Of a stretch of DNA of 64,000 nucleotides, positions 1-64,000 are shown in pieces. A program made the translations under genes and the position numbers. The notes under the pieces were generated by a model. It ran no database searches and was not told the DNA's origin. It saw nothing but the letters and a program-made list of their open reading frames with translations. How positions within the stretch are numbered: position 1 is the stretch's first letter; every line of letters begins with the position of its first letter. The stretch spans positions 558,001-622,000 of the forward strand of contig CANMMP010000002.1 of assembly GCA_947499125.1 (NCBI GenBank), read 5' to 3'. Origin of the DNA: an uncultured Pontibacter sp. (GTDB lineage: Bacteria > Bacteroidota > Bacteroidia > Cytophagales > Hymenobacteraceae).

Positions 1-804
1 CACAGAGTCAACCGGTATCATCAGGTTCACGCCTTTTTCGCGGGCCATCGCAATCAGGCGCTTTGCCAGGTCAATTTTATCTTCTTCAACCAACGACGAA
101 CCGATCTCGCCTCCATCTGCTTTCACAAACGTATAGCTCATGCCACCGCCAATCAGCAGGTTATCTACGCGGTCCATTAGTTTTTCTATGATCAGGATCT
201 TGTCAGAGATCTTGGCACCACCCATAATAGCGGTATAAGAGCGTTCGGCATTGCCCAGCACACGACGCGCATTTTCCAGTTCAGCAGTCATTACATAACC
301 CATCACCTTGTCTTTCGGGAAGTAGCGGGCAATAACTGCCGTAGAAGCATGCTCGCGGTGAGCAGTTCCGAAGGCATCATTTACATACACATCGCCCAGC
401 GTAGCCAGTTCTTTTGCAAAATCAGCATCGCCTTTTTCTTCGGCCTTATGGAAACGCAGGTTCTCCAGCAGCAGTATCTGGCCTGGCTGTAGTCCCGCTG
501 CCAGTTGTGCCGCTTCGGGGCCTACGCAGTCTTCCGCAAAAAATACAGTGGTATTGAATTCTTCAGATAAACGGGTTACCAGGTGGCGTAGTGAGTATTT
601 TTCTTCCGGTCCGTTCTTCGGTCTGCCCAAATGGGACATCAGGATAACAGCGCCGCCATCGGCTAATATTTTCTGTATGGTAGGCACAGCCGCCCGGATA
701 CGGGTATCGTCAGTGATGCGATGGTCTGAATCGAGTGGGACGTTAAAATCTACCCGCACCAGCGCTTTTTTGCCGGCAAAGTTATACTGGTCTATCGTTC
801 TCAT
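1..804 (-). CDS. pgk: Phosphoglycerate kinase, 3' end outside window
   Basis: Glycolytic kinase that moves phosphate between 1,3-bisphosphoglycerate and ADP in the cytosol. The minus-strand frame opens at the ATG complementary to 802-804 and stays open for 268 codons to the window edge; family members have about 395 residues, so roughly the last third is missing. Seen directly: the N-terminal substrate site [10 protein letters not shown], the [18 protein letters not shown] stretch with its basic Arg, [15 protein letters not shown], and the hinge-side [20 protein letters not shown] box on the minus strand (885-892) lies about 80 bases upstream of the start and is a plausible promoter. Monocistronic as far as can be seen. 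Confidence 0.97.
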
Positions 805-884
805 GAGGTAAGGTTATAGTTTTATTTCTGTTACTCATTGTTCGTGTTTCAGCTTTTTTTGTTGCTGAAATTTAAATGGATGAA

Positions 885-892
885 CAAATATA
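885..892 (-). promoter_or_regulatory. Candidate -7 box of pgk
   Basis: On the minus strand this reads TATATTTG, an exact match to the Bacteroidota -7 consensus TAnnTTTG, about 80 bases before the pgk start. No clear TTG -33 box is visible at the usual spacing, so this is a motif-only call. Confidence 0.45.
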
Positions 893-1075
893 GTAAAAGG
901 AACATGTATAGTTTGTCTGAATCAGGATTTTCAGGATGAATGGATGTGTAGGATTATTATAGACCTGGCAGTGTGCAAAGTTCCTGCTAGTGTCTGAGTT
1001 TATGGTTTTATAGTTGCAGTAATCCAACCACCCCCAGTATGGAGAGGAGCTTTCTATACTTTGAGAAAATTCCGT

Positions 1076-1146
1076 CCTTGAGGAGGGTAGGGAGGTGTTT
1101 CATAGTATACGAAATCAAACCACCCCTAACCCCTCCTTATCCAAGG
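1076..1146. repeat. Imperfect C/G-rich inverted repeat
   Basis: The left arm CCTTGAGGAGGGTAGGGAGG (from 1076) is an imperfect reverse complement of the right arm at 1121-1146 (CACCCCTAACCCCTCC then TTATCCAAGG). The loop holds a TAGTATA word. It resembles the short hairpin repeats scattered between genes in many Bacteroidota; no coding capacity. Confidence 0.55.
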
Positions 1147-1284
1147 CGGGGAGTTTTCTGCTATTGCCGATTCATAAGCTTTAGTTTTATAGTTACAGGC
1201 TAAACACCCCTATAGTCCCCTCAAGGGGACAGTTCTGACATTGTCAATTCATCCACTATAGTTTTATAGTTTACGATATTGAGC

Positions 1285-1304
1285 GGACAGGTCGCGACCT
1301 GTCC
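1285..1304. repeat. Perfect 20-base palindrome
   Basis: The sequence GGACAGGTCGCGACCTGTCC equals its own reverse complement. It is not followed by a T tract, so it is not an ordinary terminator. It sits between the TATAGTT word at 1264-1270 and an AACTATA word just downstream. Confidence 0.75.
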
Positions 1305-1732
1305 CTACGGAACTATAGCCATGAGAAAAGCGATACAACTATAGCTTCTCAATCAAACTATAGGTTAGCTATCGAAATTTATCAGTCTTTGGGTTGAGCG
1401 CCTTTGATTTGTTGCGGTGCCGCAGGCAACCTGAGGTACGAGGATAGCAAGAAAGCAGCAGCGCGATGCCCGAAGGCGAGGCCTCGCGGCCATGAGCGCA
1501 TAAAGCCAACTATAAAACTATAGGCGAATAGAGCTCCCAGGATAAGTTGATACAATGAAAGTATAGCTTGGTTCAAGAAAGTATAAATTCAAACTATAGG
1601 ACAAATAAGATTTCTCGGCTAACGGTCGAAATGACATAAGTGAAACTATAATAATGAACTACTCCTCCCAGTTATAAATTCTAACAGAAAACCCTTACCT
1701 TATAACCCTATTAATTAACGCTACCAATTTAT

Positions 1733-1740
1733 TACCTTTG
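1733..1740 (+). promoter_or_regulatory. Candidate -7 box (TACCTTTG) directly before ddl
   Basis: TACCTTTG matches the Bacteroidota TAnnTTTG consensus and ends only five bases before the ATG at 1746. Transcription usually begins a few bases after this box, so the message could be leaderless or nearly so. Confidence 0.5.
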
Positions 1741-1745
1741 CAGGA

Positions 1746-4448
1746 ATGAGAGTAGGAATAATTTTCGGTGGACCATCACGTGAGCGCGAGATCTCGTTTG
1801 CAGGTGGCCGTACGGTTTACGATAACTTAGATAAAGCATTGTTCGACGCTGTTCCGGTTTTTGTGGATAGCCTGGGCAATTTTATATTGCTGGACTGGCA
1901 ATACATCTACAAAGGTACTATCCGCGATTTTTACCCGCCAGTTGATGCATTGCCGGAAAGCGAGCATAGCTTGCAGGTATACCTGGAGTCTTTGGGTGAG
2001 CTGAGCATTGAAGAGCAGGACAAGATAATAGCCAAAGCTGGCAAGCGACTACAGCCGAACGAATTCAAAAACCATTTCGATTTTGCGTTCCTGGCACTGC
2101 ACGGGCCTTATGGCGAAGATGGTAGTATACAAGGCTTGCTGGAGTGGTACCATATTCCGTATTCTGGATCTGGTATACTTCCGTCGGCTATAGGTATTGA
2201 TAAGGTGGCGCAGAAGGAGATGCTGAAACAGCACGGCTTTCCGTCGCCTGACTACCGCATCATCAACTATACGCAGTGGTCTGATAAGCAGAACCGACCA
2301 CAGATCTTTGAGAAACTGGTAGCAGAACTTGGTTTGCCTTTAGTGTTAAAAGCGCCGCATCAAGGTTCTTCTATCGGGGTTTCTATTATAAAAGAGCAGG
2401 ATTTTGCTGCTTTTGAGCTAGGTGTAGAGCGCAGCTTCTTTACCAAAACCATTTACAAGAGCCAATGGCTGGCGATGGGCGAGGAAAAGCAGCTGATAAG
2501 CATTAAGCAGTTAGTTGATATTCGAGAAGGGATCGGTATGCCGGTGCAGCTCGAAGACGGAACTATAGTTTACCACCCGGAAGAACTGTTTAACCATATA
2601 AACAAAACCTTTACTTCAACTGCTACTGACAGCATCACGCTTACGAATATTGAACATGAGCAGCAGGTGTTGGTAGAAGCCTTTATCCGCGGGAAGGAGT
2701 TTTCTTGTATAGTTGTGCAGGACGAGCAGGGGCAGCCAATTGCGTTGCCGCCAACTGAGATCGTGAAAGGCAGCGAAGTATTTGACTACCGTTCAAAGTA
2801 CCTGCCGGGCCTGAGCCGCAAAATTACGCCAATCAACCTGCCAACAGAGCAGATTCAAAGTATAAGACAAGCTACCAGCCGACTGTTCACGGCCTTCGGG
2901 TTTAACGTGTATGCCCGCCTGGATGGCTTTATTACCGATACCAACGAAATTTTCCTGAACGACCCGAATACCACATCAGGTATGTTGCCGTCGTCGTTCT
3001 TCTTCCACCAGGCAGCTGAGATCGGACTTAACCCATCGCAGTTTCTTACTTACATTATCCGCACATCTGTTGCTGAAAGACTGAAGTCTGGCAAGGATAC
3101 CGTGAAGTTTACAAAGCTGCTGGCTGAGCTGGATAAAAGTATAAAAGAAGAGCAGGCGCACCGTCATGACAAGATACGTGTGGGTGTGATCATGGGTGGT
3201 TACTCTTCGGAACGCCATATTTCGGTGGAGAGCGGCCGTAACATTTACGAAAAGCTTTCTTCATCGGTAAAGTATGAGCCTGTTCCAATTTTCCTGACAG
3301 GCAGCAACGAAGAACACCGTCTGTACTCTATCCCGATCAATATTATGCTGAAGGATAATGCAGACGATATTAAAGAGAAGGTTTTATACTTTGAGAAAGG
3401 TGGCAAGCCGCACCCGGTACTGGCCCAGATAGCCGAAGAGGCAGAAAGTATAACCCGCAAGTATACAGGCAGCACGCTGCAGGAGCCACAGCGCATCAGC
3501 TATAGTCAGTTAAAAAACCTGGTAGATGCCGTGTTTATCGCACTGCATGGTCGTCCGGGTGAAGATGGTGCTTTGCAGGCTGAGCTGGAAAAACTATACA
3601 TTCCGTACAACGGTTCAGGTATTCGCTCGTCTCAGATAACTATAAACAAGTTTGAGACAAATGAGATCTTAGCGAATCACGGAGTTCCGGTAGCGAAGCA
3701 TACGATGGCTATGAAGGAAGACTGGTTGCATGATAAAGAAGCGTTCTTCCAAAGTATAGAAGCAGCTTTTCCTTATCCGTTCATAGCCAAACCCGCCGAT
3801 GATGGTTGCAGCTCTGCCGTGAAGAAGATTAAGAACCGTGCTGAACTGGAAGCTTTTACAACCCTGATCTTCCGTGAAATGGAAGAGCTGGATACGGATT
3901 GTGCCCGCACACTTTCGCTTGGCTTTAAAGAAGAATTCCCGAATAAGCAGGGCTATTTAGTGGAGACGCTTATCTCGAGAAACGGAGCGAAACACTTCCT
4001 GGAAATTACAGGCGGCTTGCTGACTACCCATGCACCGGATGGCAGTGTGAACTATGAAGTTTTTGAAGCATCGGAAGCCCTGGCCGAAGGTGAAGTACTG
4101 AGCTTAGAGGAGAAGTTTCTGGCTGGTGAAGGACAGAACATCACGCCTGCACGTTATGCCGCAGATCCGGAGCGTCGCCAGAAGATATCGGATAAGGTAA
4201 AAGAAGATCTGAAGCGTGTGGCGCAGCTTTTAAATATTGAAGGCTATGCCCGTATCGATGCGTTTGTGCGTGTGCTGGAAAACGATGAAGTGGAAACGAT
4301 CATCATTGAAGTAAACTCGCTGCCAGGTATGACGCCGGCAACCTGTATCTTCCACCAGACGGCCATAAACGGCTACAAACCATACGACTTCATCGACCGC
4401 ATCCTGACCTATGGCGTGGAGCGCACCAAAATGAAAGCGACGGTGTAG
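1746..4448 (+). CDS. ddl: Tandem-fused D-alanine--D-alanine ligase (two Ddl units)
   Basis: Ligates two D-alanines with ATP for peptidoglycan precursors. The 900-residue protein is two Ddl/ATP-grasp units in one frame: unit 1 starts RVGIIFGGPSREREIS, unit 2 starts at residue 476 with KIRVGVIMGGYSSERHIS. Ordinary Ddl has 300-370 residues. Unit 1 keeps LALHGPYGEDGSIQG, HQGSSIGVS, FDYRSKYLPG and a metal-site version LNDPNTTSGM, where the usual Glu of LEANTSPGM is Asp. Unit 2 keeps ALHGRPGEDGALQ, a divergent GCSSAVKK loop, loses the Y-x-x-K-Y loop, but has the classical EVNSLPGMT. The units may therefore have specialised. A PASTA gene follows 143 bases downstream. A single-unit enzyme split by error is excluded because both halves are full length. 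Confidence 0.9.
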   Translation: MRVGIIFGGPSREREISFAGGRTVYDNLDKALFDAVPVFVDSLGNFILLDWQYIYKGTIRDFYPPVDALPESEHSLQVYLESLGELSIEEQDKIIAKAGKRLQPNEFKNHFDFAFLALHGPYGEDGSIQGLLEWYHIPYSGSGILPSAIGIDKVAQKEMLKQHGFPSPDYRIINYTQWSDKQNRPQIFEKLVAELGLPLVLKAPHQGSSIGVSIIKEQDFAAFELGVERSFFTKTIYKSQWLAMGEEKQLISIKQLVDIREGIGMPVQLEDGTIVYHPEELFNHINKTFTSTATDSITLTNIEHEQQVLVEAFIRGKEFSCIVVQDEQGQPIALPPTEIVKGSEVFDYRSKYLPGLSRKITPINLPTEQIQSIRQATSRLFTAFGFNVYARLDGFITDTNEIFLNDPNTTSGMLPSSFFFHQAAEIGLNPSQFLTYIIRTSVAERLKSGKDTVKFTKLLAELDKSIKEEQAHRHDKIRVGVIMGGYSSERHISVESGRNIYEKLSSSVKYEPVPIFLTGSNEEHRLYSIPINIMLKDNADDIKEKVLYFEKGGKPHPVLAQIAEEAESITRKYTGSTLQEPQRISYSQLKNLVDAVFIALHGRPGEDGALQAELEKLYIPYNGSGIRSSQITINKFETNEILANHGVPVAKHTMAMKEDWLHDKEAFFQSIEAAFPYPFIAKPADDGCSSAVKKIKNRAELEAFTTLIFREMEELDTDCARTLSLGFKEEFPNKQGYLVETLISRNGAKHFLEITGGLLTTHAPDGSVNYEVFEASEALAEGEVLSLEEKFLAGEGQNITPARYAADPERRQKISDKVKEDLKRVAQLLNIEGYARIDAFVRVLENDEVETIIIEVNSLPGMTPATCIFHQTAINGYKPYDFIDRILTYGVERTKMKATV

Positions 4449-4591
4449 TTAGAAGTTTAGAAAGTTAAACTAAGATTTTTAAGATCTGATAGATTACTGG
4501 ATTTTATACTTTACAGGAAATCCTTAACATCATTTAATCTTAAAAATCTTAGTCCGGCAATTTAGCAATCAACAATACAGCAATTTAAAAA

Positions 4592-5368
4592 ATGTTTAAA
4601 GCGAATTCGTTTGTCGATGTGCTGAAGCACGTGGCAATAATGGCGGTTATTGTAGGAGCCCTTATAATAGGCTTCTTTTACTTTTACCTGCCTTCCAGTA
4701 CCAACCATGGCGAGAGTGTGCCGGTGCCTAAAATTACAGGTATGTCGCTGCCCGATGCCGAAGCTTTCCTGGATGAGCAGAACCTGCGCTATTTTATCAA
4801 CGACTCCAGCTATAACTCCGAGCATAAGCCATTCGAGATACTGACACAGGACCCGGCGCCGGGTGCGCAGGTAAAGGAAGGTCGTAAAATTTACGTATCG
4901 GTGAACATGAAGAACCCGCCGATGATCAAAATGCCAAAATTAATTGACGGCTCGGTTAAAAATGCGGAGCTGATATTGAAGAGCTACGACCTGAAAATAG
5001 GTAAGATAACACCAGTGCCCGACCTGCAGAAAAATGCAGTGCTTAAACAATTCGTAAGCGGCAGAGAAGTAGCTCCGGGCGAAGCGATAGCCAAAGGTTC
5101 TATAGTGGACCTGCATGTAGGTGATGGCCTCGGCAACACTGAATTTGAAGTGCCGGAAGTAGTTGGAATGCCATTAGACGAAGCTTCGGTTGTGCTTGTA
5201 GGCCAGGGACTCCAGATCGGTAATATAATTTATGTGCAGGGCAGCGGCCAACAGAACGGTACCGTTCTACGACAGCGGCCTTTTGCCGAAGTTGGCGCTA
5301 AAATAAGGGTAGGTGAGCTGGTTGACCTATGGGTTGCCGGAACCGAACCGATGCAGACAATTGATTAA
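4592..5368 (+). CDS. Membrane-anchored three-PASTA-domain protein
   Basis: 258 residues: a short cytoplasmic N-terminus, one membrane helix at about residues 12-33 and three PASTA repeats (about 42-108, 110-180, 185-255), each with the V/M-P-x-L/V-x-G-x-x-x-x-x-A core (for example VPKITGMSLPDAEAFL and VPEVVGMPLDEASVVL). PASTA domains bind peptidoglycan or muropeptides; here there is no kinase or transpeptidase domain, so this is a stand-alone cell-envelope sensor or scaffold. Position directly after the Ddl fusion fits a wall-related role. Bacteroidota commonly carry such PASTA-only proteins; exact function unknown. Confidence 0.88.
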   Translation: MFKANSFVDVLKHVAIMAVIVGALIIGFFYFYLPSSTNHGESVPVPKITGMSLPDAEAFLDEQNLRYFINDSSYNSEHKPFEILTQDPAPGAQVKEGRKIYVSVNMKNPPMIKMPKLIDGSVKNAELILKSYDLKIGKITPVPDLQKNAVLKQFVSGREVAPGEAIAKGSIVDLHVGDGLGNTEFEVPEVVGMPLDEASVVLVGQGLQIGNIIYVQGSGQQNGTVLRQRPFAEVGAKIRVGELVDLWVAGTEPMQTID

Positions 5369-5379
5369 GGGACAAGTAT

Positions 5380-5420
5380 AACGCAGCGCCTGCCAGAGAT
5401 GGCGGGCGTTGTTGTTTTCA
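5380..5420 (+). terminator. Possible imperfect terminator after PASTA gene
   Basis: An imperfect hairpin pairs ACGC..CGCCTGCCA (5381-5395) with TGGCGGGCGT (5400-5409) around a GAGA loop, followed by a mixed GTTGTTGTTTT tract. The T run is weak. Confidence 0.4.
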
Positions 5421-11571: not shown

Positions 11572-11574
11572 CAC

Positions 11575-12699: not shown

Positions 12700-13147
12700 T
12701 CCTTTTTGATCTTACTTTAGATTAACCGGCATTCAGATGAAAGTATGGCATGTTTCAACTATAAGCTATCCATCTTATATAGATTTCTCACGCTGTTCGA
12801 AATGACAGTAGTGCTTATTGAAACTATAAAGTTAATTGCTTTCTGTACCATTGAGCCATTGTTGGTGTTTTGACCAACAATCTGGATATCAGGCTCTTTG
12901 TGTTTGTTGGTGGAAATACACAGCAATGGTAAGAAAAGTATAGCTGCCAGCAAGAAGTATAGTTGTTGGTGAAAACACCAACAACGGCAGAAACTGGAAC
13001 ACTAACAACGGCACAAAAAGAAGTATAGTTGTTGGTGAGAACACCAACAACGGCAGGAATATCAGGAAGTAACTTATCGCTTTTCATTTCTGCCTTGCTG
13101 TTTATACTTATAGTATGATCTGTCGGCTATCAATTCCGGTTTAAAGC
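12700..13147. other. Geneless region carrying palindromic repeats
   Basis: No coding sequence is convincing; minus-strand frames here only translate the repeats. It contains two perfect and two degenerate copies of a GTTGTTGGTG / CACCAACAAC palindrome plus several AASTATA words (for example at 12936, 12956, 13022), described separately. Confidence 0.75.
12858..13051. repeat. Cluster of interspersed palindromic repeats
   Basis: Copies: ATTGTTGG...CCAACAAT at 12858-12881; a degenerate copy starting at 12904; perfect GTTGTTGGTG-AAAA-CACCAACAAC at 12962-12985; an isolated right arm near 13000-13010 (CACTAACAACGGCAC); perfect GTTGTTGGTG-AGAA-CACCAACAAC at 13028-13051. The two perfect copies are 66 bases apart and share the left flank AGAAGTATA and right flank GGCAG. 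Each could form a 10-base-pair hairpin with a four-base loop. Confidence 0.85.
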
Positions 13148-22491: not shown

Positions 22492-23271
22492 ATGGCAAAT
22501 TCATACTATAAGGGTAAAATAATATTGGTTACGGGTGGGGCACAGGGCATTGGGCTTGGTATTGGACAGGCTTTTGCTGCCGAGGGTGCCCAAGTAATAA
22601 TTGCGGATACTGATGAAGAAGCAGGGCAGGAGGCGGTTGAAAGTATAAGATCTGACCCAAAACCTGAGTTTATACTTTGTGATGTAAGCCGTGAAGAGGA
22701 TGTGCAAGCTGTACTGCAAACTATAAAACAAAAGTATAGCCAATTAGATGTGCTGGTGAATAATGCCGGTATAGCCGATCCGTTTATGGGTAGCCTGGAA
22801 GAAGTGCCTGTTCCAGATTTTGATAAGGTGCTGGCCGTAAATCTGCGGGGGACTTTTTTATGCGCTAAGTATAGCCTGCCCTTGTTACGGAAAGCTAAAG
22901 CACCGGCTATAGTTAATATTACCAGCACCAGGGCTTTTATGTCGGAACCGGATACATTTGCATATTCCGCTTCGAAAGGCGGGTTGGAGGCCTTAACGCA
23001 TTCGTTAGCCATTAGCCTTGCCGAAGATAAGGTGCGGGTAAATGCCATTGCGCCCGGCTGGATAGAGACCCGGAACTGGCAGAAAGAAAAAGACAGAGAA
23101 GAACCGCATCATAGAAAAGAAGACAAAGAGCAGCACCCTGTAGGCCGGGTGGGCACTCCCGAAGACATAGCCCAGGCTGTTTTGTTTCTGTGTTCAGATA
23201 AGGCAGGTTTTATAACCGGGCAAAGTATAACTATAGATGGCGGCATGACGGTAAAGATGATCTATAAATAA
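22492..23271 (+). CDS. SDR family oxidoreductase
   Basis: 259 residues, classical short-chain dehydrogenase. NAD(P) site VTGGAQGIGLGIG, then LCDVS, NNAGIAD, catalytic Ser145 (NITSTRAF), Tyr158 and Lys162 (YSASKGG), and the C-terminal FITGQSITIDGGM. The acidic Asp39 after the second strand suggests NAD preference. Substrate unknown; similar to 3-oxoacyl-ACP reductase or glucose dehydrogenase types. The gene is rich in AASTATA words (for example 22641, 22720, 22733, 23223, 23229). Monocistronic. Confidence 0.93.
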   Translation: MANSYYKGKIILVTGGAQGIGLGIGQAFAAEGAQVIIADTDEEAGQEAVESIRSDPKPEFILCDVSREEDVQAVLQTIKQKYSQLDVLVNNAGIADPFMGSLEEVPVPDFDKVLAVNLRGTFLCAKYSLPLLRKAKAPAIVNITSTRAFMSEPDTFAYSASKGGLEALTHSLAISLAEDKVRVNAIAPGWIETRNWQKEKDREEPHHRKEDKEQHPVGRVGTPEDIAQAVLFLCSDKAGFITGQSITIDGGMTVKMIYK

Positions 23272-27757: not shown

Positions 27758-29329
27758 ATGAGAGAAGAAAAAGGTTTACCATCACGTTTTGCCACCCTAT
27801 CAAAAGACATTCCGGCTGGCCTTGTTGTATTTTTAGTTGCTCTTCCGCTTTGCCTGGGCATATCGCTGGCATCGGGGGCACCCCTTTTTGCGGGTATAAT
27901 TACAGGTGTAGTAGGCGGCGTTGTAGTGTCGTGGCTCAGCGGCTCTAACCTGAGTGTAAGCGGACCAGCGGCTGGCCTTACCGTAATTGTACTTAATGGC
28001 ATAGAAACCCTGCAAAGCTATGAAGCCTTTTTGCTGGCTGTTGTGCTGGCAGGTTTTATACAGCTGGTGCTTGGGTTTGTTAAAGCCGGTGTTATCGGTT
28101 TATACTTTCCTTCGTCGGTGATCAGGGGTATGCTGGCAGCAATTGGCCTTATACTTATACTTAAGCAGATCCCGCACTTTTTAGGAGCAGACGACGACTT
28201 TTTCGGGAGTCTGAATTTTATACAGGCTGATGGGCTCAATACTTTTTCAGGTATAACGCATGCTCTTTCAGCTATAAACCTGGGTGCACTTATAGTTGGG
28301 TTGGTGTCGCTGGCTATTTTACTGCTTTGGGATACACCCTTATTTAAAGGTATCAAGTTATTTAAGTTTATACCAGGCGCGCTTATCGTAGTATTAGCTT
28401 CTGTTGGCTTGAATGCCGCTTTTTTCAGCTACTTCCCGGATCTGACTATTTCTAACAGCCATTTGGTGAACCTACCTGTAATTACAGGTATACAGGGACT
28501 CGGAAGCGAACTGAGCCTGCCCGATTTCAGTGCATTTGCCAACCCTTCGTTATACGTGGTAGCCTTTACCATTGCGATCGTGGCCAGCCTCGAAACACTG
28601 CTTAGCGTTGAAGCCGTAGATAAACTGGATCCGCATAAGCGCCGTACGCCAACAAACCGCGAATTAAAAGCGCAGGGTGTGGGTAACATGCTAAGCGGTA
28701 TAATTGGTGGTTTACCTATGACAGCGGTTATTGTAAGAAGCTCAGCTAACATTGTAGCAGGCGGCCAGACAAAACTTTCAGCGTTTGTACACGGCATTTT
28801 CCTGTTGCTTTCAGTGCTGTTCCTGTCCAGCTTTCTGAACCAGATTCCATTGTCGGCATTAGCTGCAGTTTTGCTGGTAGTTGGTTTTAAATTAACGAAG
28901 CCTGCTTTGTTTAAAAGCCAGTTCAAACTCGGAGCAGAGCAGTTTATACCTTTTATAGTTACCATTATCGCCATCCTGTTCACTGACCTGTTGATCGGTA
29001 TATGTGTGGGTCTTGCGGTGGGTATCTTCTTTATCCTGAAAGCAAACTATAAATCGCCGTATTTCTACCACGAAGAGGAGCAGAAAGACAAGGATATTAT
29101 CCGTATCAGGCTGAGCGAGCACGTATCGTTCCTGAACAAGGCAAGTATAGTTTTAACGCTCGATCATCTGCCGCATAACAGTAAAGTTACTATTGATGGC
29201 GAGAACACAGCCTTTATAGATTACGATGTGCTGGAGGCTATCCAGGAATTTAAACAAACCGCTCACGAGCGAAACATCGATGTTGTGGTACTGAACGTGA
29301 CCGAGGTATCAACAATGGAAGTAAACTAA
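27758..29329 (+). CDS. SulP-family anion (probably bicarbonate) transporter
   Basis: 523 residues from the ATG at 27758; the frame extends upstream but without a better start. About 11-12 helices carrying the SulP signature (DIPAGLVVFLVALPLCLGISLASGAP, SVSGPAAGLTVIVLNGI, LETLLSVEAVDKLDPHKR). The C-terminus is a reduced STAS-like segment (SHVSF..., VTIDGENTAFIDYDVLEAI). A beta-carbonic anhydrase follows 40 bases downstream; this pairing, known in marine and Bacteroidota genomes, points to HCO3- uptake rather than sulfate. Confidence 0.9.
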   Translation: MREEKGLPSRFATLSKDIPAGLVVFLVALPLCLGISLASGAPLFAGIITGVVGGVVVSWLSGSNLSVSGPAAGLTVIVLNGIETLQSYEAFLLAVVLAGFIQLVLGFVKAGVIGLYFPSSVIRGMLAAIGLILILKQIPHFLGADDDFFGSLNFIQADGLNTFSGITHALSAINLGALIVGLVSLAILLLWDTPLFKGIKLFKFIPGALIVVLASVGLNAAFFSYFPDLTISNSHLVNLPVITGIQGLGSELSLPDFSAFANPSLYVVAFTIAIVASLETLLSVEAVDKLDPHKRRTPTNRELKAQGVGNMLSGIIGGLPMTAVIVRSSANIVAGGQTKLSAFVHGIFLLLSVLFLSSFLNQIPLSALAAVLLVVGFKLTKPALFKSQFKLGAEQFIPFIVTIIAILFTDLLIGICVGLAVGIFFILKANYKSPYFYHEEEQKDKDIIRIRLSEHVSFLNKASIVLTLDHLPHNSKVTIDGENTAFIDYDVLEAIQEFKQTAHERNIDVVVLNVTEVSTMEVN

Positions 29330-54448: not shown

Positions 54449-56716
54449 ATGGATTTTAACATTAACCACTTACTTAAAATTGCTTCGGAGCTCAACATAA
54501 CTATAAAGCAGATCGAAGCAACGGCTACCTTATTGGATGAGGGGGCGACGGTGCCTTTTATATCGCGTTACCGAAAAGAAGCGACCGGCTCCCTGGACGA
54601 AGTGCAGATCGCTGCTATCCGGGATCGCCTGGAGCAACTGCGGGAACTGGACAAGCGCCGCGATAGCATCCTGAAATCTATTAAAGACCAGGATAAACTG
54701 ACGCCTGAGCTGGAAGAGCAGATTATGGCTGCCGAAACAATGGCTGTGCTCGAAGATATTTACCTGCCTTACAAACCAAAACGCCGCACCAAAGCAACTA
54801 TAGCCCGCGAAAAAGGACTGGAGCCACTGGCGCAGCGCCTGTTCGAGCAGGAGAACTTTGATGTGGAGGGCGAAGCTGCCAACTTTATTTCGGAAGAGAA
54901 AGAAGTAAAAGATACTGTCGAAGCCCTGGCCGGTGCCCGCGATATTATGGCCGAGTGGATGAACGAGAACGCAGAGGCCCGTGCCAGCATGCGCCAGCTT
55001 TTCGAGAAGAAAGGCGTGTTCAAGAGCCGTGTGATGATGGGGAAGGAAGAAGAAGGCCAGAAGTTTAAAGACTACTTTGAGTGGGAAGAGCCGATCGAGA
55101 AAGCGCCATCGCATAGAATTTTAGCTATGCGCCGTGGCGAAACTGAAATGGTATTGATGCTGAGCGCTCAACCAGAGGAAGAAGAAGCTCTCGACAGGCT
55201 TGAAAATATGTTCGTGAAAGGCAACAATGCAGCATCGGAGCAGGTGAAACTGGCAGCCAAAGACTGCTACAAGCGCCTGCTGAAGATGAGCATGGAAACC
55301 GAAGTGCGCCTGAGCTCTAAAAAACGTGCCGACGAAGAAGCAATAAAAGTATTTGCCGATAACCTGCGCCAGTTGCTGTTATCATCGCCACTTGGCCAGA
55401 AAACTGTTTTGGCCCTGGACCCTGGTTTTAGAACCGGTGTAAAAACTGTGGTGCTGGATAAACAAGGCAAACTGCTGCATAACGAAACCATTTACCCGCA
55501 CACTGGTCAGCATAAAGAGCAGGAAGCAGCACAAACCGTGCGTTATATGGTTACCCGCTTTGAGGTAGAGGCCATTGCCATAGGTAACGGAACCGCCAGC
55601 CGCGAAACCGAAGCTTTTGTAAAATCTTTGAAGTTGCCTGCTTCGGTTATGGTAGTGATGGTGAACGAAAGTGGTGCGTCTATTTACTCTGCTTCGGATG
55701 TTGCCCGCGAGGAATTTCCTGACCAGGATGTAACCGTGCGTGGCGCTGTATCTATCGGTCGCCGTTTAATGGACCCTTTGGCGGAGCTTGTAAAGATAGA
55801 CCCGAAAAGCATTGGGGTAGGCCAGTACCAGCACGATGTGGATCAGTCTGCGCTAAAGCATACACTGGATGATGTGGTAATGAGCTGCGTGAATGCCGTA
55901 GGTGTGGAAGTGAACACAGCCAGTAAGCAGTTGTTAACTTATGTTTCGGGTTTAGGACCTGCTTTGGCGCAGAATATAGTTGAGTACCGTAACCAGAATG
56001 GACCTTTTAAAACCAGAACCGAACTGAAGAAAGTTGCCCGTTTAGGTGATAAGGCATTTGAGCAGGCTGCAGGTTTCTTAAGAATACGCGATGCGAAAAA
56101 CCCGCTGGATGCCTCTGCAGTGCACCCGGAAAGTTACCCGATCGTGGAGCAGATGGCAAAAGACCTGGGTGTTACCGTTCAAGACCTGATGCAGAAAGAC
56201 GAACTCCGCAAACAGATCAACCTGAAGAACTATGTGACCGAAGCCGTAGGCTTACCAACCCTGCAGGATATAGTGAGTGAACTTGCAAAACCAGGCCGCG
56301 ACCCGCGCGAGACCTTTGAAGCTTTCAGCTTTACCGAAGGCGTGAACGAGATAAAAGACCTGCGTGAGGGCATGAAGTTACCGGGTATAGTTACGAATAT
56401 TACGGCTTTCGGAGCTTTCGTGGACATTGGCGTGCACCAGGATGGACTCGTACACGTGAGCCATTTATCTGACCGCTTTGTGAGCAACCCGCATGATGTG
56501 GTGAAAGTAGGGCAGAAGGTAGAGGTTACGGTGCTGGAAGTAGATGCAAATCGCAAGCGCATCTCGCTTAGCATGAAAGGCGACCCGGCTGCTCCGAAAC
56601 CTGCCAGAGATGGTGGTAACAGAGACCGTACCAACAAAGCTTCCGGTAAAAAAGAAGAAGAGCCAATGGACGACTTCCAGGCAAAACTGGCAAAGCTGAA
56701 GGGAATGTTTAAGTAG
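54449..56716 (+). CDS. tex: Tex, S1-domain RNA-binding transcription accessory protein
   Basis: 755 residues: Tex N-terminal helix domain (VPFISRYRKEATGSLDEVQI), YqgF/RNase-H-like domain around residue 320 (ALDPGFRTGVKTVVL), helix-hairpin-helix region (LGPALAQNIVEYRNQNGPFK), then C-terminal S1 domain (GMKLPGIVTNITAFGAFVDI, HVSHLSDRF). Conserved nucleic acid-binding protein associated with transcription; strong match in order and length to the ~770-residue family. A terminator follows. Confidence 0.96.
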   Translation: MDFNINHLLKIASELNITIKQIEATATLLDEGATVPFISRYRKEATGSLDEVQIAAIRDRLEQLRELDKRRDSILKSIKDQDKLTPELEEQIMAAETMAVLEDIYLPYKPKRRTKATIAREKGLEPLAQRLFEQENFDVEGEAANFISEEKEVKDTVEALAGARDIMAEWMNENAEARASMRQLFEKKGVFKSRVMMGKEEEGQKFKDYFEWEEPIEKAPSHRILAMRRGETEMVLMLSAQPEEEEALDRLENMFVKGNNAASEQVKLAAKDCYKRLLKMSMETEVRLSSKKRADEEAIKVFADNLRQLLLSSPLGQKTVLALDPGFRTGVKTVVLDKQGKLLHNETIYPHTGQHKEQEAAQTVRYMVTRFEVEAIAIGNGTASRETEAFVKSLKLPASVMVVMVNESGASIYSASDVAREEFPDQDVTVRGAVSIGRRLMDPLAELVKIDPKSIGVGQYQHDVDQSALKHTLDDVVMSCVNAVGVEVNTASKQLLTYVSGLGPALAQNIVEYRNQNGPFKTRTELKKVARLGDKAFEQAAGFLRIRDAKNPLDASAVHPESYPIVEQMAKDLGVTVQDLMQKDELRKQINLKNYVTEAVGLPTLQDIVSELAKPGRDPRETFEAFSFTEGVNEIKDLREGMKLPGIVTNITAFGAFVDIGVHQDGLVHVSHLSDRFVSNPHDVVKVGQKVEVTVLEVDANRKRISLSMKGDPAAPKPARDGGNRDRTNKASGKKEEEPMDDFQAKLAKLKGMFK

Positions 56717-58413: not shown

Positions 58414-58434
58414 TATTCGATAAGAATACCATAG

Positions 58435-58464: not shown

Positions 58465-58630
58465 GTTTAATATTTTTTAAAGACTTACAGATCAAGAAGG
58501 TCAGAAGTTTATACTACTATTTTTATGCCTTCGTTTATACATCATATAAATCAATCTGGCCAAGCACTTTGGCAGAAAACTTGCTTACAGTTTTATACTT
58601 ACAAGTTTTAATTTGAATTCCTGATCTTAT

Positions 58631-59521
58631 ATGATGTTCCGAACTATAAAGAATGCCGCATTGCTACTCGCTATCTGGGTAGTACCGTCTGTTGGCTTGC
58701 AGGCTGAAACTATAACGCCAACAACTACTGTAACCAAAACCGAACCTGCAGCTGGTGCCCGCGATATTGTAAAAGAGATTATTGATGTGATCGGCCTGAA
58801 GCCAAGGTTTGAATTACGGTCCGCTAACATCGAAAATGCAGCTGCCGTTATTTACAATGGCGAGCGCTATATTTTGTACAACGAAGATTTCCTGGCTGCC
58901 ATAAACAATGCCGTACACACCGACTGGGGCGGCGTAAGTATACTTGCCCACGAAATTGGGCATCACCTGAATGGCCATACCCTAAGCCGGGCTGGCAGCA
59001 ACCCCGCCGATGAGCTGGAAGCTGATGAGTTTTCTGGTTTTGTGCTGCGTAAAATGGGCGCCAGCTTAGCAGAAGCTCAGGCAGCTATTAATTTATTGTC
59101 GGAAGAGCATACTTCTGCCACTCATCCGGGCCGAAACTATAGATTGGCCTCGATAAGTAAAGGCTGGCGAAATGCGGATGAACAGTTAATAGCCAGCAAC
59201 CAGGCACCCCAACCAGACAGAACAGGAGTTACTGTGCAACCGCAGCGCAAACAACAGGTACGACAGGCAAACGCCGAGAGCCGTTATGTGCTGAGCCGCG
59301 TACATTTTTCATCGGCACCCAACGAGGAGTTCTACCTAACAAACAGCCTGCAACTGGTGCACATCACCAACCAGGGGCCGAAAGTTATAGGTAAGCTATC
59401 AAAAACTAATAACCGCCAGTTCCCTTATTATTTCGAGAGCAAATACCTGCAACCACTTTTTGTTACTACCAAAGGAAGCCTTGTAAACCAGAAGGGGCAT
59501 AAAGTGGGTTACCTGGGCTAA
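58631..59521 (+). CDS. M48-type zinc metalloprotease, secreted
   Basis: 296 residues. Signal peptide at the start (MMFRTIKNAALLLAIWVVPS). HEIGHH motif (His107, Glu108, His111) preceded by SILA and followed by ELEADEFSG, which gives the third metal ligand, so the catalytic residues of M48 are all present. No membrane helices beyond the signal, unlike HtpX/Ste24. C-terminal ~100 residues lack a recognised domain. Substrate unknown. Confidence 0.85.
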   Translation: MMFRTIKNAALLLAIWVVPSVGLQAETITPTTTVTKTEPAAGARDIVKEIIDVIGLKPRFELRSANIENAAAVIYNGERYILYNEDFLAAINNAVHTDWGGVSILAHEIGHHLNGHTLSRAGSNPADELEADEFSGFVLRKMGASLAEAQAAINLLSEEHTSATHPGRNYRLASISKGWRNADEQLIASNQAPQPDRTGVTVQPQRKQQVRQANAESRYVLSRVHFSSAPNEEFYLTNSLQLVHITNQGPKVIGKLSKTNNRQFPYYFESKYLQPLFVTTKGSLVNQKGHKVGYLG

Positions 59522-59579
59522 GTATAGTTTCAGATGGCTCCTGAAAGCCTGGTCTATAGTTTTTACGTAACTTTACCTT

Positions 59580-60173
59580 ATGATCAAGACCTTAAAACAT
59601 ACACAATACTTTAAGTTTTTATGGTTGCTGATGCCTGTTTTTATACTTGGCTGTAGCACTAAAAGCGATGTTGAGGCTTTTAAAGAAGCCAAATACGACT
59701 TGGCCGGTGTAGAGTCGGTGCAGGTAAATGGTGTTAGCCTGCTTAATAAATCGGATATAAGTGATTTCTCCTTTTCGGATGCAAGCAGGCTGTACAGTGC
59801 CGTGTCGAAGAACGACCTGTCAGCTACCTCTACATTGGGATTACAGATAACCTTACCAGAAGGCAGCAAAGAGCGAACCATGCTGGTGAACCAACTGAAG
59901 TGGCAGCTACTGGTTGACGGACAGCAGGCAGTAAGCGGACTCGTGGACCAGCCGGTTGAGTTAAAGGAAGGACTGAATACTATAACAGTTTCTTCGCTGG
60001 TGAAGCTGGCAGAAAACCAGGGGCGCGTAGATATAGATCAATTACTGCAGCTGGCTTCACTTTTAAACCAGAACGCTACAAATAAACCCCCAGTTTCACT
60101 GCAGATCAAACCAACTATACAAACTTCAGTGGGTGCTTTCGAGATGCCTGGTTACATAACTGTAACTAAATAA
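59580..60173 (+). CDS. Lipoprotein of unknown function
   Basis: 197 residues; lipobox VFILGC with Cys25. Mature domain (VESVQVNGVSLLNKSDISDF, LGLQITLPEGSKERTMLV) resembles beta-sandwich proteins such as LEA14-like domains, but no assignment is safe. A TAACTTTA box lies just before the start. Downstream gap carries the sigma-54 promoter of the next small gene. Confidence 0.7.
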   Translation: MIKTLKHTQYFKFLWLLMPVFILGCSTKSDVEAFKEAKYDLAGVESVQVNGVSLLNKSDISDFSFSDASRLYSAVSKNDLSATSTLGLQITLPEGSKERTMLVNQLKWQLLVDGQQAVSGLVDQPVELKEGLNTITVSSLVKLAENQGRVDIDQLLQLASLLNQNATNKPPVSLQIKPTIQTSVGAFEMPGYITVTK

Positions 60174-60233
60174 GGTACTATTTTAAGGTTGGGTTTAAAC
60201 TTTTGATAACTTTTAAGAAAAAGTGTCGTAGTG

Positions 60234-60249
60234 TGGCACATTCCTTGCT
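60234..60249 (+). promoter_or_regulatory. Sigma-54 (RpoN) promoter
   Basis: TGGCAC, five bases, TTGCT: an exact match to the -24/-12 consensus TGGCAC-N5-TTGCW. The ATG of the 66-codon gene is 45 bases downstream, and no alternative gene lies closer on the plus strand. Confidence 0.75.
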
Positions 60250-60293
60250 TTTAGTGTGTTAGAACACCAATAACCAACTTTAAGCCAAAGGAT

Positions 60294-60494
60294 ATGAACA
60301 CAGAAGTTAATGTAAACCGCAACCAGCTGACTACAAGCACCACTGTTAAAAATACAATGCTGCACGGTTGGGTTAAAATGGGAAATGTAATTGCACAGAC
60401 TGACAGGATCACTACGCAGATAGAAAGTGACCCACTTGTAAAGTTTAATACACAACGCGCCATCCGCGACCAGAAGAGCTGGGTGCGTTGGTAA
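60294..60494 (+). CDS. Small protein under a sigma-54 promoter
   Basis: 66 residues (MNTEVNVNRNQLTTSTTVKN at the start, RAIRDQKSWVRW at the end), with AAAGGA before the ATG. No signal, membrane helix or recognised domain; Thr/Asn-rich and basic C-terminus with Trp residues. Coding status is supported by the upstream RpoN promoter and full-length open frame; product and regulon unknown. Confidence 0.6.
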   Translation: MNTEVNVNRNQLTTSTTVKNTMLHGWVKMGNVIAQTDRITTQIESDPLVKFNTQRAIRDQKSWVRW

Positions 60495-60550
60495 ACTGGT
60501 CTGCTAAGCGAGGTATTGTTTTATAGGATCTCCTTGCTTAACTTGACCAG

Positions 60551-61462
60551 ATGCTACACAAAATTATACCTGGGGCGCTTATAGCCCTACTATTGGCCGG
60601 ATGCTCGCAAAAACCTTTGCTGCACTCCGGCCAATTGCTTTATGATGTAAAAGTATTGGCTGCCGATTCGCTGGAAGGCAGGGCAAGTACAACTGCAGGC
60701 AACTATAAAGCGCGCACCTATCTTATTAAACGCTTTTCCGAAATCGGGCTTCAGCCTTATAATAACTCCTACGAGCAGCACTTCACAATAAAACGCAGAA
60801 CCTCAGAAGGGCAGGGCACCAACCTGGTGGGTTATATTCCGGGGAACTCCGGCAAAAGTATAGTTATAACCGCCCACTACGACCACGTTGGTGTTAGAAA
60901 TGATGAGATATATAACGGTGCCGATGATAATGCCTCCGGGGTAGCAGCCATGCTGGCCGTAGCCGTTTATTTTAAAGAAAACCCACCCCAGCACACGTTA
61001 ATATTTGTAGCACCTGACGCTGAGGAAATGGGCTTGCAGGGAGCAGGCGCTTTCCTTGATAACCCACCCGTGCCTTTAGATGATATACTGCTCAACGTGA
61101 ACCTCGATATGCTAAGTATAAACTCTAGAGGTGAACTATACACCAGCGGAGTCTATCATTACCCGGGACTTAAAGAACTTGTCGAAAAAGTAAAACCACA
61201 GGCAAATGCCCGCCTCCTTACAGGCCACGACCACCCTGACCAGGGCCGCGACGACTGGACAAATCAATCCGATCATTATCAGTTTCATAAGCGTGGCATC
61301 CCGTTTTTATACTTTGGGGTAGAAGACCACCCGCATTACCATCGCCCAACCGACGATTTCGAACAAATAAACCAGGCGTTTTATGCAGATGCCGTTACCC
61401 TTGTCATTGATTTTCTGAAAGTTGCCGATAAAAGCCTGAATCAAAGGCCTGCAAGCAGATAA
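60551..61462 (+). CDS. M28 family zinc aminopeptidase, lipoprotein
   Basis: 303 residues; lipobox LLLAGC, Cys18. Zinc ligands and catalytic residues of M28: ITAHYDHVG, NGADDNASGVAAMLAVA, PDAEEMGLQGAGAF, NVNLDMLS and the final His in HYHRPTDDFEQIN. Removes N-terminal amino acids from peptides outside the cytoplasm. No neighbour suggests a specific role. Confidence 0.92.
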   Translation: MLHKIIPGALIALLLAGCSQKPLLHSGQLLYDVKVLAADSLEGRASTTAGNYKARTYLIKRFSEIGLQPYNNSYEQHFTIKRRTSEGQGTNLVGYIPGNSGKSIVITAHYDHVGVRNDEIYNGADDNASGVAAMLAVAVYFKENPPQHTLIFVAPDAEEMGLQGAGAFLDNPPVPLDDILLNVNLDMLSINSRGELYTSGVYHYPGLKELVEKVKPQANARLLTGHDHPDQGRDDWTNQSDHYQFHKRGIPFLYFGVEDHPHYHRPTDDFEQINQAFYADAVTLVIDFLKVADKSLNQRPASR

Positions 61463-61653
61463 GATATATTACATTATTTTGATATAATGATGTAATTATC
61501 TTTTTTTGCTTATCTTTTTATAACTAATAGCGTAGATTAATTTAGCTGATAATGCACCTGAAAGTATAACTTTCTATTGCCTAATGCTTTGCATTTTTTT
61601 AAGCTGCCCTATATTATCCTTTTTTCAGATACCCTTTATCAACCTGTGTTTAT

Positions 61654-62424
61654 ATGAACAGGAAAATTACGGTTTTTACCCTGATAATAACCCTTTTACT
61701 CATTCACGCGGATGTGGCAGCCCAGTCTGATTTCGTGAAGCGCATGCGTATGAGCAAGTTGCCGGAGCGCGGACTGGTTGTAGTGGCTGGCGCAGGCACG
61801 GCTGTAGTGCGCAGTAGTATTTGCGGCACGCCCGGCTGTAACGATTTCAGACCAGCCTGGGGAATTGGCGCTCTCTATAAATTCGACCCGATCTGGTCGG
61901 CAAGCCTAAACTTTGACTACCTTAAACTGGGTGCTTCTGAAAAGGACCCGAATATGCCGCGTAACTTATCTTTTAAAACAGATGTGATAGAAGTGAGCGC
62001 CACGGCCATGTATAACTTACTCGATGCCTATAGTGGCTCAGGTGGTTACCGCTCTTCGCGCAAGCGCTTTGTAGTGCCTTATGTAAAAGCCGGTGCTGGT
62101 TTTATATACTATACAGCAACTTCTTTCCCGACATCCAGCGAGCTGGCTGAATCGCAGACGACATACGACCCTGAACGTAAGTACCCGGCTTTTGGCCTGG
62201 TAGTGCTTGGTGGCGGCGGCATGCGCTTCCGTTTCTCGGACCAGGTAAGTATAGCTCCCGAACTTTTATACCATATCAGTTCCAGCAAATACCTCGATAA
62301 CGTTGGCCCACGACTGGCTCCGGGCGGCGGCCGGGATCATTATGGCGTCGCTTTTATCAGGCTGATGTATACTCCTGAAATAACCCCCAATATTTTCAGC
62401 AGAAAAGCCCAGCAGGCCAAATAG
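61654..62424 (+). CDS. Secreted outer-membrane beta-barrel-like protein
   Basis: 256 residues. Signal peptide (ITVFTLIITLLLIHADVAAQ) then barrel-like strands including IGALYKFDPIWSASLNFDYL, PYVKAGAGFIYYT, GGGMRFRFSDQVSIAPELLY and a Cys pair ICGTPGCNDF near the N-terminus. Belongs with the small outer membrane barrels of Bacteroidota; exact family not recognised. Confidence 0.7.
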   Translation: MNRKITVFTLIITLLLIHADVAAQSDFVKRMRMSKLPERGLVVVAGAGTAVVRSSICGTPGCNDFRPAWGIGALYKFDPIWSASLNFDYLKLGASEKDPNMPRNLSFKTDVIEVSATAMYNLLDAYSGSGGYRSSRKRFVVPYVKAGAGFIYYTATSFPTSSELAESQTTYDPERKYPAFGLVVLGGGGMRFRFSDQVSIAPELLYHISSSKYLDNVGPRLAPGGGRDHYGVAFIRLMYTPEITPNIFSRKAQQAK

Positions 62425-62521
62425 CAACTATAAGCTCACAACTCAACCACACTTTCTGGGTACCGTAGTGTAAATATACTTTGCCGCAACTAAAAAATGC
62501 TGCGCCATACTTAAACAAACT

Positions 62522-63544
62522 ATGAGAACATCTGAAAAAAATAAACTGTGGTGGTTGGCTGCCGGAGCCGGGGCTATACTTACAGCTCGTGCTATTTACC
62601 GTAATGTAACAGCTTTCGATTTTAACGGAAAGGTAGTGCTGATAACCGGCGGCTCGAGAGGGTTTGGCCTGGTAATGGCCCGCAAACTAGCCAAAGAAGG
62701 TGCACGCCTTGTACTTTGCTCCCGCGATGAGACCGAACTTGAGAATGCCCGCCTGGAGCTTGCAGGTAAGGGAGCCGATGTGCTGGTGATAAAATGCGAC
62801 GTGACCGTTCAGGAGCAGGTTAACGACATGATAACGAATGTGCTGAATGAGTTCGGTCCGATCGATGTGCTGATAAACAATGCCGGAGTGATACATGCCG
62901 GGCCTGTTACCGAAATGACGACAGAAGACTTTAAAGATGCCATTGACACGCACTTCTGGGGTCCTGTATATACTATATTAGCTGTTTTGCCTTCCATGAA
63001 AGCACGCCGGCAGGGGCGTATACTTAATGTGGCATCTATAGGAGGTAAAATAAGTGTGCCGCATTTGGTACCTTACAGCGCCAGTAAGTTTGCATTAGTT
63101 GGTCTGTCGGAGGGCTTGCGTTCTGAGCTGGATAAGTATAATATTACAGTAACTACGGCTAACCCCGGCCTGATGCGTACCGGAAGTCCGCGACATGCTT
63201 TTATAAAAGGGCAGCATAAAAAAGAATATGCTTTGTTCAAGATCCTGGATTCAAGCCGGTTGACATCTAACAGCGCCGAAGCCACTGCCGATTCTGTTTT
63301 AGATGCCCTGCGGCACGGGGATGCTGAAGTTACGACCACTTTCCCGGCTTTGCTGGGCGAGTTTGTGCATGGTATATCGCCGGCGCTTATTACGGCTGCT
63401 TTCGGGTTGATAAACCGCATTCTCCCTGACGAAGGTGGAATAGGAAAACGAAGAGCAAAAGGATATGCCAGCGAGACCAATTTATCGATGTCGTGGCTAA
63501 CGGAGCCAAGCCAGGAGGCTGCACGGCGCAATAACGAACTATAA
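62522..63544 (+). CDS. SDR family oxidoreductase with N-terminal hydrophobic segment
   Basis: 340 residues. NAD(P) site ITGGSRGFGL (40-50), NNAGVIHA, catalytic Ser172 (NVASIGGKIS), Tyr185 and Lys189 (YSASKFA). A short hydrophobic stretch WWLAAGAGAILTARAI before the domain may anchor it. C-terminal extension of ~90 residues beyond the fold. Substrate unknown. The NUDIX gene follows 20 bases later. Confidence 0.9.
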   Translation: MRTSEKNKLWWLAAGAGAILTARAIYRNVTAFDFNGKVVLITGGSRGFGLVMARKLAKEGARLVLCSRDETELENARLELAGKGADVLVIKCDVTVQEQVNDMITNVLNEFGPIDVLINNAGVIHAGPVTEMTTEDFKDAIDTHFWGPVYTILAVLPSMKARRQGRILNVASIGGKISVPHLVPYSASKFALVGLSEGLRSELDKYNITVTTANPGLMRTGSPRHAFIKGQHKKEYALFKILDSSRLTSNSAEATADSVLDALRHGDAEVTTTFPALLGEFVHGISPALITAAFGLINRILPDEGGIGKRRAKGYASETNLSMSWLTEPSQEAARRNNEL

Positions 63545-63564
63545 ACCTAATATCACCCTTACAA

Positions 63565-64000
63565 ATGAAAATAAAGAACAGGCAGAAAGTATACGACGGC
63601 TATTTTAAAATGTATGAGCTGACCGTAGAACAGGATGGCCATACACTTAAACGCGAACAGTTTGACCGTGGAATTGCCGTAGCAGCTTTGGTGCATGATA
63701 CTGAAAAAGACCTTTACATTCTGACAAATCAATTCAGGATAGGATCAGAGTCGGAAATGGTGGAAGTAGTAGCCGGCATGATTGATAAAGGGGAGAGCCC
63801 TGAAACAAGTATAAAACGCGAGATAGAAGAAGAGATCGGTTACCATGTGGATGAACTGAAGCTACTTTATACTTTCTTTTCGTCGCCGGGAGGAACCACT
63901 GAAAAAGTGACCTTATACTTTGCAGAAGTTAGCAGGCAGCAAGGCAATGGAGGCGGCAAAGCCGAAGAGCACGAGAAGATCGAAATAGTGTCGCTTACAA
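63565..64000 (+). CDS. NUDIX hydrolase, 3' end outside window
   Basis: The frame from the ATG at 63565 is open to the window end (145 codons). The NUDIX box Gx5Ex7REUxEExGU is complete: GMIDKGESPETSIKREIEEE then IGY. The preceding QFRIGSESEMVEVVAG resembles ADP-ribose and GDP-mannose pyrophosphatases of the NudK/NudF type. Substrate not certain; family length ~190-200 residues. Confidence 0.9.
   Translation, partial: MKIKNRQKVYDGYFKMYELTVEQDGHTLKREQFDRGIAVAALVHDTEKDLYILTNQFRIGSESEMVEVVAGMIDKGESPETSIKREIEEEIGYHVDELKLLYTFFSSPGGTTEKVTLYFAEVSRQQGNGGGKAEEHEKIEIVSLT

Follow-up and report, generated by a model that had tools for sequence, protein, structure and literature searches.

AASTATA, an abundant seven-base word of a Pontibacter genome, is one dialect of a word family that varies within the genus

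We analysed a stretch of 64,000 bases from the genome of an uncultured Pontibacter sp. (the window), in which the seven-base word AASTATA (S is C or G) recurs on both strands, in genes as well as in the gaps between them. A direct count found 286 copies in the window, or 4.5 per kb, of which 69 were spelled AACTATA, 88 AAGTATA, 61 TATAGTT and 68 TATACTT, i.e. 157 on the forward and 129 on the reverse strand. An order-0 model of base composition predicts about 24 copies (0.37 per kb), and the reversed word, used as a control, was present in 17 copies. The preliminary description of this DNA had reported the same recurrence against a random expectation of 0.2 per kb, which is somewhat low. The word copies referred to in the text, and the gene used to find the same locus in other genomes, were as follows.

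1..64000, both strands: the word set, 286 AASTATA copies (direct count)
1009..1650, both strands: dense cluster of 14 copies between the open reading frames 1-813 and 1746-4448 (position list and reading-frame list)
12936..12942, forward strand: AAGTATA copy (position list)
22641..22647, forward strand: AAGTATA copy (position list)
22732..22738, forward strand: AAGTATA copy (position list)
28150..28162, reverse strand: pair of TATACTT at 28150 and 28156, overlapping by one base (position list)
29143..29149, forward strand: AAGTATA copy (position list)
54449..56716, forward strand: anchor gene with S1 and helix-hairpin-helix matches (NCBIfam; the matches listed are below cut-offs), which we take to be Tex-like; used for fetching the locus only, with no part in the proposed mechanism

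The densest kilobase of the window begins at 801 and holds 16 copies. Earlier counts of 14 copies in 1000-1660 and 5 in 28001-29000 were right, and so were the example positions 12936 and 22641, whereas the examples given at 22733, 28109 and 29135 lie at 22732, 28101 and 29143. Within the word cluster, between the two reading frames, a perfect 20-base inverted repeat GGACAGGTCGCGACCTGTCC was seen at 1285-1304. The reading frame at 1746-4448 (forward strand) encodes a 900-amino-acid protein whose two ends both match D-alanine-D-alanine ligase; it appears to be a fusion or duplication of this enzyme.

The whole genome (G000; 3,982,306 bases in 16 contigs, a draft with an unmapped replication origin) contained 15,670 AASTATA copies, about 3.9 per kb or one per 254 bases, in comparison to 1,138 copies (564 + 574) of the reversed pattern, which excludes an enrichment confined to the window. 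Relative to the reversed control the AAG spelling was enriched 17.6-fold and the AAC spelling 11.4-fold. No orientation bias was found genome-wide (7906 forward, 7764 reverse), although draft contigs of arbitrary orientation could mask one; among 20 stretches of 20 kb the greatest strand skew was 34 vs 62. One of these stretches (L182, G000:C8:20001-40000) lies on a plasmid-like contig of 57.9 kb, the only such contig found, and had 17 words vs 7 reversed, near background, whereas the 19 others together had 1524 words vs 103 reversed. This contig carries a Rep3 initiator, ParA, an E1-E2 ATPase, a VKOR/SPW protein and an AraC-type regulator. The next lowest stretch (L178, G000:C4:150001-170000) had 38 words and is possibly a recent island.

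The sharpness of the word was determined in a 464 kb sample of G000, consisting of the window and the 20 stretches. An order-3 Markov model, applied to both strands, predicted 216 AAGTATA and 231 AACTATA, and 901 and 926 were found. The preliminary description had named a count near the third-order expectation as evidence against a selected word; the excess was 4-fold, and no other 7-mer with more than 80 copies reached a z-score as high as those of the two spellings. The word is strict throughout its seven positions: in the window the single-substitution neighbours had 0-40 copies (AAATATA 20, AATTATA 18), compared to 130 and 156 for the two words, and in the sample one-step neighbours reached 0.1-3.9 times the order-1 expectation, compared to about 10 for the words. 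In G000 the word was followed by A or G in 81% and preceded by A in 40% of copies, almost no information was found past three flanking bases on either side, and AAC and AAG copies had similar neighbouring bases.

Markov models of orders 4 and 5 trained on the window predicted 147 and 239 of the 286 copies; the order-4 expectation was thus exceeded about 2-fold even though such a model absorbs the word. As these models are trained on the word itself, they are circular and were dropped as null models, and a synonymous shuffle was therefore taken as an independent null. For this, 373 genes (390.6 kb) were predicted from the longest open reading frames with a codon filter, so that the borders between classes are approximate. 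Shuffling synonymous codons within each gene (20 runs) gave 228.6 +/- 14.7 coding words, compared to 1291 observed, a 5.6-fold excess, and each of the six frame-and-strand classes was enriched 2.9-9.3 fold. Of the isoleucine codons in the genes of the sample 40% are ATA (3472 copies), and 21% of these ATA codons lie inside the word.

Coding and noncoding DNA were about equally enriched, 8-11 fold in comparison to their own composition. Inside genes 670 words were in sense and 621 in antisense orientation, evenly distributed along the gene length. Since both the two orientations and the two kinds of DNA are so similar, the word acts on DNA and not on RNA, and an RNA-level signal was rejected. 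Among the gaps, word density was highest in convergent ones (80 words in 7.0 kb, 11.4 per kb), followed by divergent (7.5) and tandem ones (6.3). Counts per gene varied more than expected from a Poisson distribution (chi-square per gene 1.8), and 27 of the 269 genes longer than 600 bases had no word, where 12 were expected. Over all DNA of the sample, head-to-tail pairs 6-8 bases apart were in excess.

Next, 7-mers were scanned in the same 20 kb locus of 50 Pontibacter genomes, each of which had one full-length match to the anchor gene. The scan was widened to 60-80 kb for nine genomes, the set for G210 then including the locus of G025; dialect groups were assigned by eye, and whole-genome counts confirmed three of the spellings. 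A word was over-represented about 9-39 fold in comparison to its reversed form in 39 of the 50 genomes. The dialects share a TATA core and are AAGTATA, AACTATA(G), both of these together, AGGTATA, GGTATA and TATATA. AAGTATA was found in 19 genomes (8.8-38.5 times the reversed control) from several clades, and these also hold AGGTATA at 3.3-6.7 fold. AACTATA(G), written out as AACTATAG, was found in five genomes (15.2-20.9), among them G211, which also has AAG at 12.3. The AGGTATA dialect covers 12 genomes of one clade (17.7-38.4). Mixed AAG and AAC were seen in G000 (values as above), G032 (16.3 and 7.3) and G217 (21.3 and 4.2), with which the weak G007 (4.0 and 2.2) was grouped, and single genomes had GGTATA after any base (G036) or TATATA (G215). 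AASTATA is thus a single dialect of a word family varying within one genus.

In the remaining eight genomes (G024, G027, G026, G214, G210, G025, G033 and G002) none of the words was clear, with traces of AGG in G002 (3.9-fold) and of about 3 in G024, G210 and G025. A tree of six locus proteins was built with a quick method (14 of 47 inner branches below 80), and on it the word-less genomes fell into at least four lineages. Word-less genomes were larger, with a mean of 5.91 Mb (5.2-6.5) in comparison to 4.63 Mb (3.8-5.6) for the other 42 (Mann-Whitney p = 1.5e-5, from rounded sizes and uncorrected for relatedness), and each word-less lineage was larger than its nearest word-bearing relatives on the same tree. 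The loss of a password may have admitted foreign DNA, or large genomes may relax weak selection. Between related species (G217, G032, G000, G211, G030, G018) the AAG:AAC ratio was graded, which suggests the drift of one reader and not two separate systems.

Some sites were shared between dialects. As pooled genome pairs are not independent, distinct sites were counted and compared with a shift null: AAG and AGG shared 7 (0.18 expected), AAG and AAC 5 (0.16), and AAC and AGG 2, equal to the maximum of 300 shifts (mean 0.09). Conserved codons could explain part of this sharing, and no weight was put on it.

On one and the same TATA core, a word on both strands was disfavoured, with odds ratios of 0.32 in G000, 0.32 in AAG genomes and 0.41 in AGG genomes. 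The word is thus not palindromic in the AAG, AGG and mixed dialects (0.32-0.42 overall), and only the AAC dialect leans to the dyad AACTATAGTT with an odds ratio of 2.0. Because a word on one strand makes that of the other strand less likely, orientation on the same core seems interchangeable, and preferences for neighbouring bases may contribute to the effect.

The preliminary description had proposed a comparison with related genera, and in the genomes sampled AASTATA enrichment was limited to Pontibacter. Within the family, 154 genomes from five further genera showed no enrichment of it (ratios up to about 1.4), nor did 22 genomes of the order's other families (at most about 1.1), and ARGTATA was not enriched in 394 other genomes of the phylum (highest about 1.7, compared to 12.6 in G000); these tests detect only the spellings searched. 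In a 7-mer scan of 68 of 80 named loci (at least 10 kb) the word was among the top five only in two Pontibacter loci. Other highly repeated 7-mers were seen in single loci, namely GATCACC (29 vs 5.3) in L036 of Hufsiella ginkgonis, and CTCCGGA (17 vs 0.7) and CTTTCTC (33 vs 3.2) in L047 and L053, two contigs of metagenome-assembled genomes.

Additionally, one species pair, G208 and G013, was compared over 170.7 kb of aligned DNA (89.5% identical). AAGTATA was shared at 0.794, in comparison to a median of 0.590 over 2283 7-mers (rank 23). Codons encoding the same amino acid in both species were identical in 444 of 474 cases inside the word (94%), where 360.6 (76.1%) were expected from the same codons elsewhere; codons inside the word thus change about 4 times less often. 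Since synonymous codons inside it are preserved, the word is selected or driven. Where only one species has the word, 116 of 165 places differ by one base, and these differences are spread over all seven positions. In the word-less G024 only 8 of 111 words of its relatives survive (0.07 vs 0.19 for ordinary 7-mers). With retention high in bearers and below that of ordinary 7-mers in G024, the preference for the word is active in the former and seems gone in the latter. If the sites are near mutation-selection balance, the scaled advantage would be about ln 5.6 = 1.7 per site. The earlier proposal of a genome-wide selected or self-propagating word is thus supported by the genome counts, the synonymous-codon null and codon conservation. 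The word system, genome-wide and with dialects within one genus, is both real and strong, and it is undescribed as far as we searched: no account of such a word in Bacteroidetes or Pontibacter was found among the best-ranked results of a literature search that covered few subscription journals.

The genomes were also searched for genes of natural transformation. The ComEC and DprA families had matches in all 50 genomes, and in 48 of them the matched region was free of stops. The two exceptions, G022 and G009, had stops and also frame changes in both genes (loci L234, L235, L254 and L255), while flagged genes around the anchor gene were 0 of 9 comparable ones in G022 and 2 of 17 in G009, one of them flagged also in three relatives. 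That the two genes were lost together suggests a role of the pair in transformation. In G018 the frame of comEC has no stop in the match but measures only 561 amino acids (at least 702 in the rest). A second, lower-scoring DprA-family gene was seen only in G000:C2:451482-452096 and G033:C61:1243-1854.

The type IV pilin domain PF07963 had no match in the 50 Pontibacter genomes, in comparison to 8 of 14 control genomes, and a type IV pilin receptor was rejected. Transformation of Riemerella is reported to need ComEC, DprA and surface or outer-membrane proteins unlike the classical machinery (PMC8459023, consulted in part), so the absence of pilins counts against a ComP-like reader and not against uptake. 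A receptor beside comEC was likewise rejected in G000, where the four scanned neighbours are ordinary (a DEAD-box helicase, an acetyltransferase, a PhoH protein and a SAM hydroxide adenosyltransferase). A scan of ten window proteins for defence families gave weak matches only, to two of them.

Our leading though tentative explanation is that AASTATA serves natural transformation as a DNA uptake (self-recognition) sequence and that a sequence-specific DNA-binding protein likely reads it. Copies would be created by ordinary point mutations, in genes and gaps alike, and a surface receptor would preferentially bind and take up fragments with the species' own word, so that word-bearing alleles could spread by transformation as a molecular drive. 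A drift in the receptor's preference would carry thousands of sites with it and so produce dialects as well as mixed stages like G000, and once a lineage lost specificity its words would decay. The scarcity of words on the plasmid-like contig agrees with this view, as does the paired loss of comEC and dprA. A receptor other than a type IV pilin would be expected, and candidates are the class of surface and TonB-like proteins required for transformation in Riemerella, which belongs to the same phylum. Somewhat more speculatively, Pontibacter may have a password system independent of those in Neisseriaceae and Pasteurellaceae, with TATA-core words in at least six spellings, a pilin-free receptor, G000 caught in the middle of a switch from AAG to AAC, and a loss of the password that goes together with larger genomes as if a barrier to foreign DNA fell.

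Several observations weigh against uptake as the function of the word. All eight word-less genomes have comEC and dprA with full-length frames and without stops in the match, which rejects the loss of either gene as the cause of word loss; with both genes intact, these genomes would have to take up DNA without specificity for the word. G009, in which both genes are broken, kept 192 of 233 words of its relatives, the best retention among nine members of its clade. The break is probably recent, since differences at the three codon positions are for the most part distributed as in its relatives; the method is rough, however, as it also reported false gaps and stops in G017, whose comEC is intact, and of the nine genomes G009 had the smallest fraction of third-position changes among its private dprA substitutions (6 of 14). 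G022, the other genome with broken genes, has the weakest word of the 19 AAG genomes, and its word retention is not clearly unusual for its branch. The density of 3.9 per kb exceeds about 2.5 per kb, the highest for an uptake sequence in the consulted parts of the literature. Within genes the copies lie nearly at random distances (0.88-1.05 of the random expectation at 20-200 bases and 0.66 at 4-20), overlaps on the same core excepted. If fragments of kilobase length were taken up, nearby extra copies would be redundant; near-random spacing would rather suggest a local benefit of each site. No receptor gene was found in the searches described above, and no uptake experiment on Pontibacter was found among the best-ranked results of the literature search.

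Such a local, additive value is what would be expected if the word were the binding site of a protein that organises or maintains the chromosome, about one per 250 bases, each site with a small advantage and the dialects following the drift of its specificity. The preliminary description had also named a nucleoid-protein site, and near-random spacing with little redundancy at 20-200 bases agrees with it. The odds ratios of 0.32-0.41 look as if either orientation served one binding event, although they may partly reflect the bases beside the core and the ratio is 2.0 in the AAC dialect. The low word density on the plasmid-like contig fits as well, and intact comEC and dprA in word-less genomes pose no difficulty. 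On the other hand no candidate protein was found, and we know of no nucleoid protein whose site has become 10-40 fold more frequent than background throughout coding DNA; overall we regard this explanation as rather unlikely, yet as the chief rival to uptake.

Improbable to us is a HIP1-like origin, in which the word is created and kept up by a methyltransferase that recognises it, acting together with methylation-guided mismatch repair or a related bias of conversion, and the dialects follow changes in its specificity. HIP1-class words reach a comparable abundance, and N6_N4_Mtase and Eco57I are families known for asymmetric sites. N6_N4_Mtase (PF01555) was found in 31 of the 50 genomes and was absent from the strong bearers G208, G014, G030 and G018, while Eco57I (PF07669) was found in 47, mostly as weak matches, the strong ones scattered over word-bearing and word-less genomes. 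Neither of these two families, the only ones tested, tracks the word, and both were rejected as a universal partner. In cyanobacteria the occurrence of HIP1 and of alternative HIPs follows that of methyltransferases (PMC4390886, in the part consulted). Most dialects are moreover not palindromic. A drive by single-base conversion should deplete the one-step neighbours of the word and was rejected, as AAWTATA and almost all the others occur at undiminished frequency in the 464 kb sample; the depleted ones were AACTAGA (0.13) and AAGTCTA (0.35), with mild cases at 0.7-0.9, and CTAG is generally rare. A recombination or segregation signal of the Chi or KOPS type, read by a translocating helicase, is very improbable: Chi sites are over-represented short asymmetric words too, but the strand counts in G000 are equal (as far as draft contig orientation does not hide a bias), orientation on the same core seems interchangeable and the spelling changes within one genus. 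More remote still is an artefact of codon usage or composition, or context-dependent mutation. The word is AT-rich and contains the frequent isoleucine codon ATA, but every frame retains an excess over the shuffle that preserves codon usage (5.6-fold overall), the ratio is the same in noncoding DNA, seven strict positions go beyond any one-base mutation bias, and the codons inside the word are the slower to change.

Few lineages have documented genome-wide dialect words, and to our knowledge the only proven function of such words is that of uptake sequences. Pontibacter has six spellings, intermediates that grade into one another and at least four separate word-less lineages, so that an old question, the origin, switching and death of such words, becomes directly testable. 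The reader protein could be found from its phyletic profile and from residue changes that track the spelling. Donor DNA bearing the word might render Pontibacter transformable, and word density might flag foreign DNA in its genomes.

Among the functions named in the preliminary description the analogy to uptake sequences fits best, while the methyltransferase link of HIP1 found no support in the two families tested. Chi resembles the Pontibacter word as a short, asymmetric, over-represented chromosomal word; its over-representation is much weaker, and in Pontibacter no strand bias was seen and the spelling varies within the genus. Like HIP1 and the alternative HIPs of cyanobacteria, the word is highly iterated and gained or lost between close relatives; HIP1 is palindromic and tied to methyltransferases, whereas the Pontibacter dialects are mostly asymmetric and are tracked by neither of the two families tested (PMC4390886; this and the following comparisons cover the consulted parts of the papers). 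In Pasteurellaceae two clade-specific spellings of the uptake signal sequence, the Hin and Apl types, arose by mutation (PMC1626085, Redfield 2006), and the Pontibacter word likewise has clade spellings with a shared part, a probable mutational origin and many copies. The Pasteurellaceae signal has 9 bp with AT-rich flanks and two types per family (PMC1626085), in contrast to six spellings in one genus and little information beyond three flanking bases (in G000).

The uptake sequences of Neisseriaceae form eight dialects that are congruent with phylogeny and have an essential 3-base core in common; there are 5918 copies in a genome of 2.4 Mb, and one genome has two dialects differing by one base together with many overlapping dyad pairs (PMC3630211, Frye 2013). 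The Pontibacter word differs in its length of 7 bp and its TATA core (12 bp and CTG in Neisseriaceae, PMC3630211), in its density of up to about 4 per kb, in its Bacteroidota host and in the lack of a ComP-like reader, as no type IV pilin domain match was seen in the 50 genomes; transformation without the classical machinery has been reported in the phylum (PMC8459023). In other respects the two are alike: both words are short, present in thousands of copies inside and outside genes, and varied in clade-congruent dialects around a constant short core, with two dialects of one-base difference coexisting in one genome (here G000) and dyads in some genomes (PMC3630211). A DNA uptake sequence with dialects is the closest working model for AASTATA and its relatives in Pontibacter.

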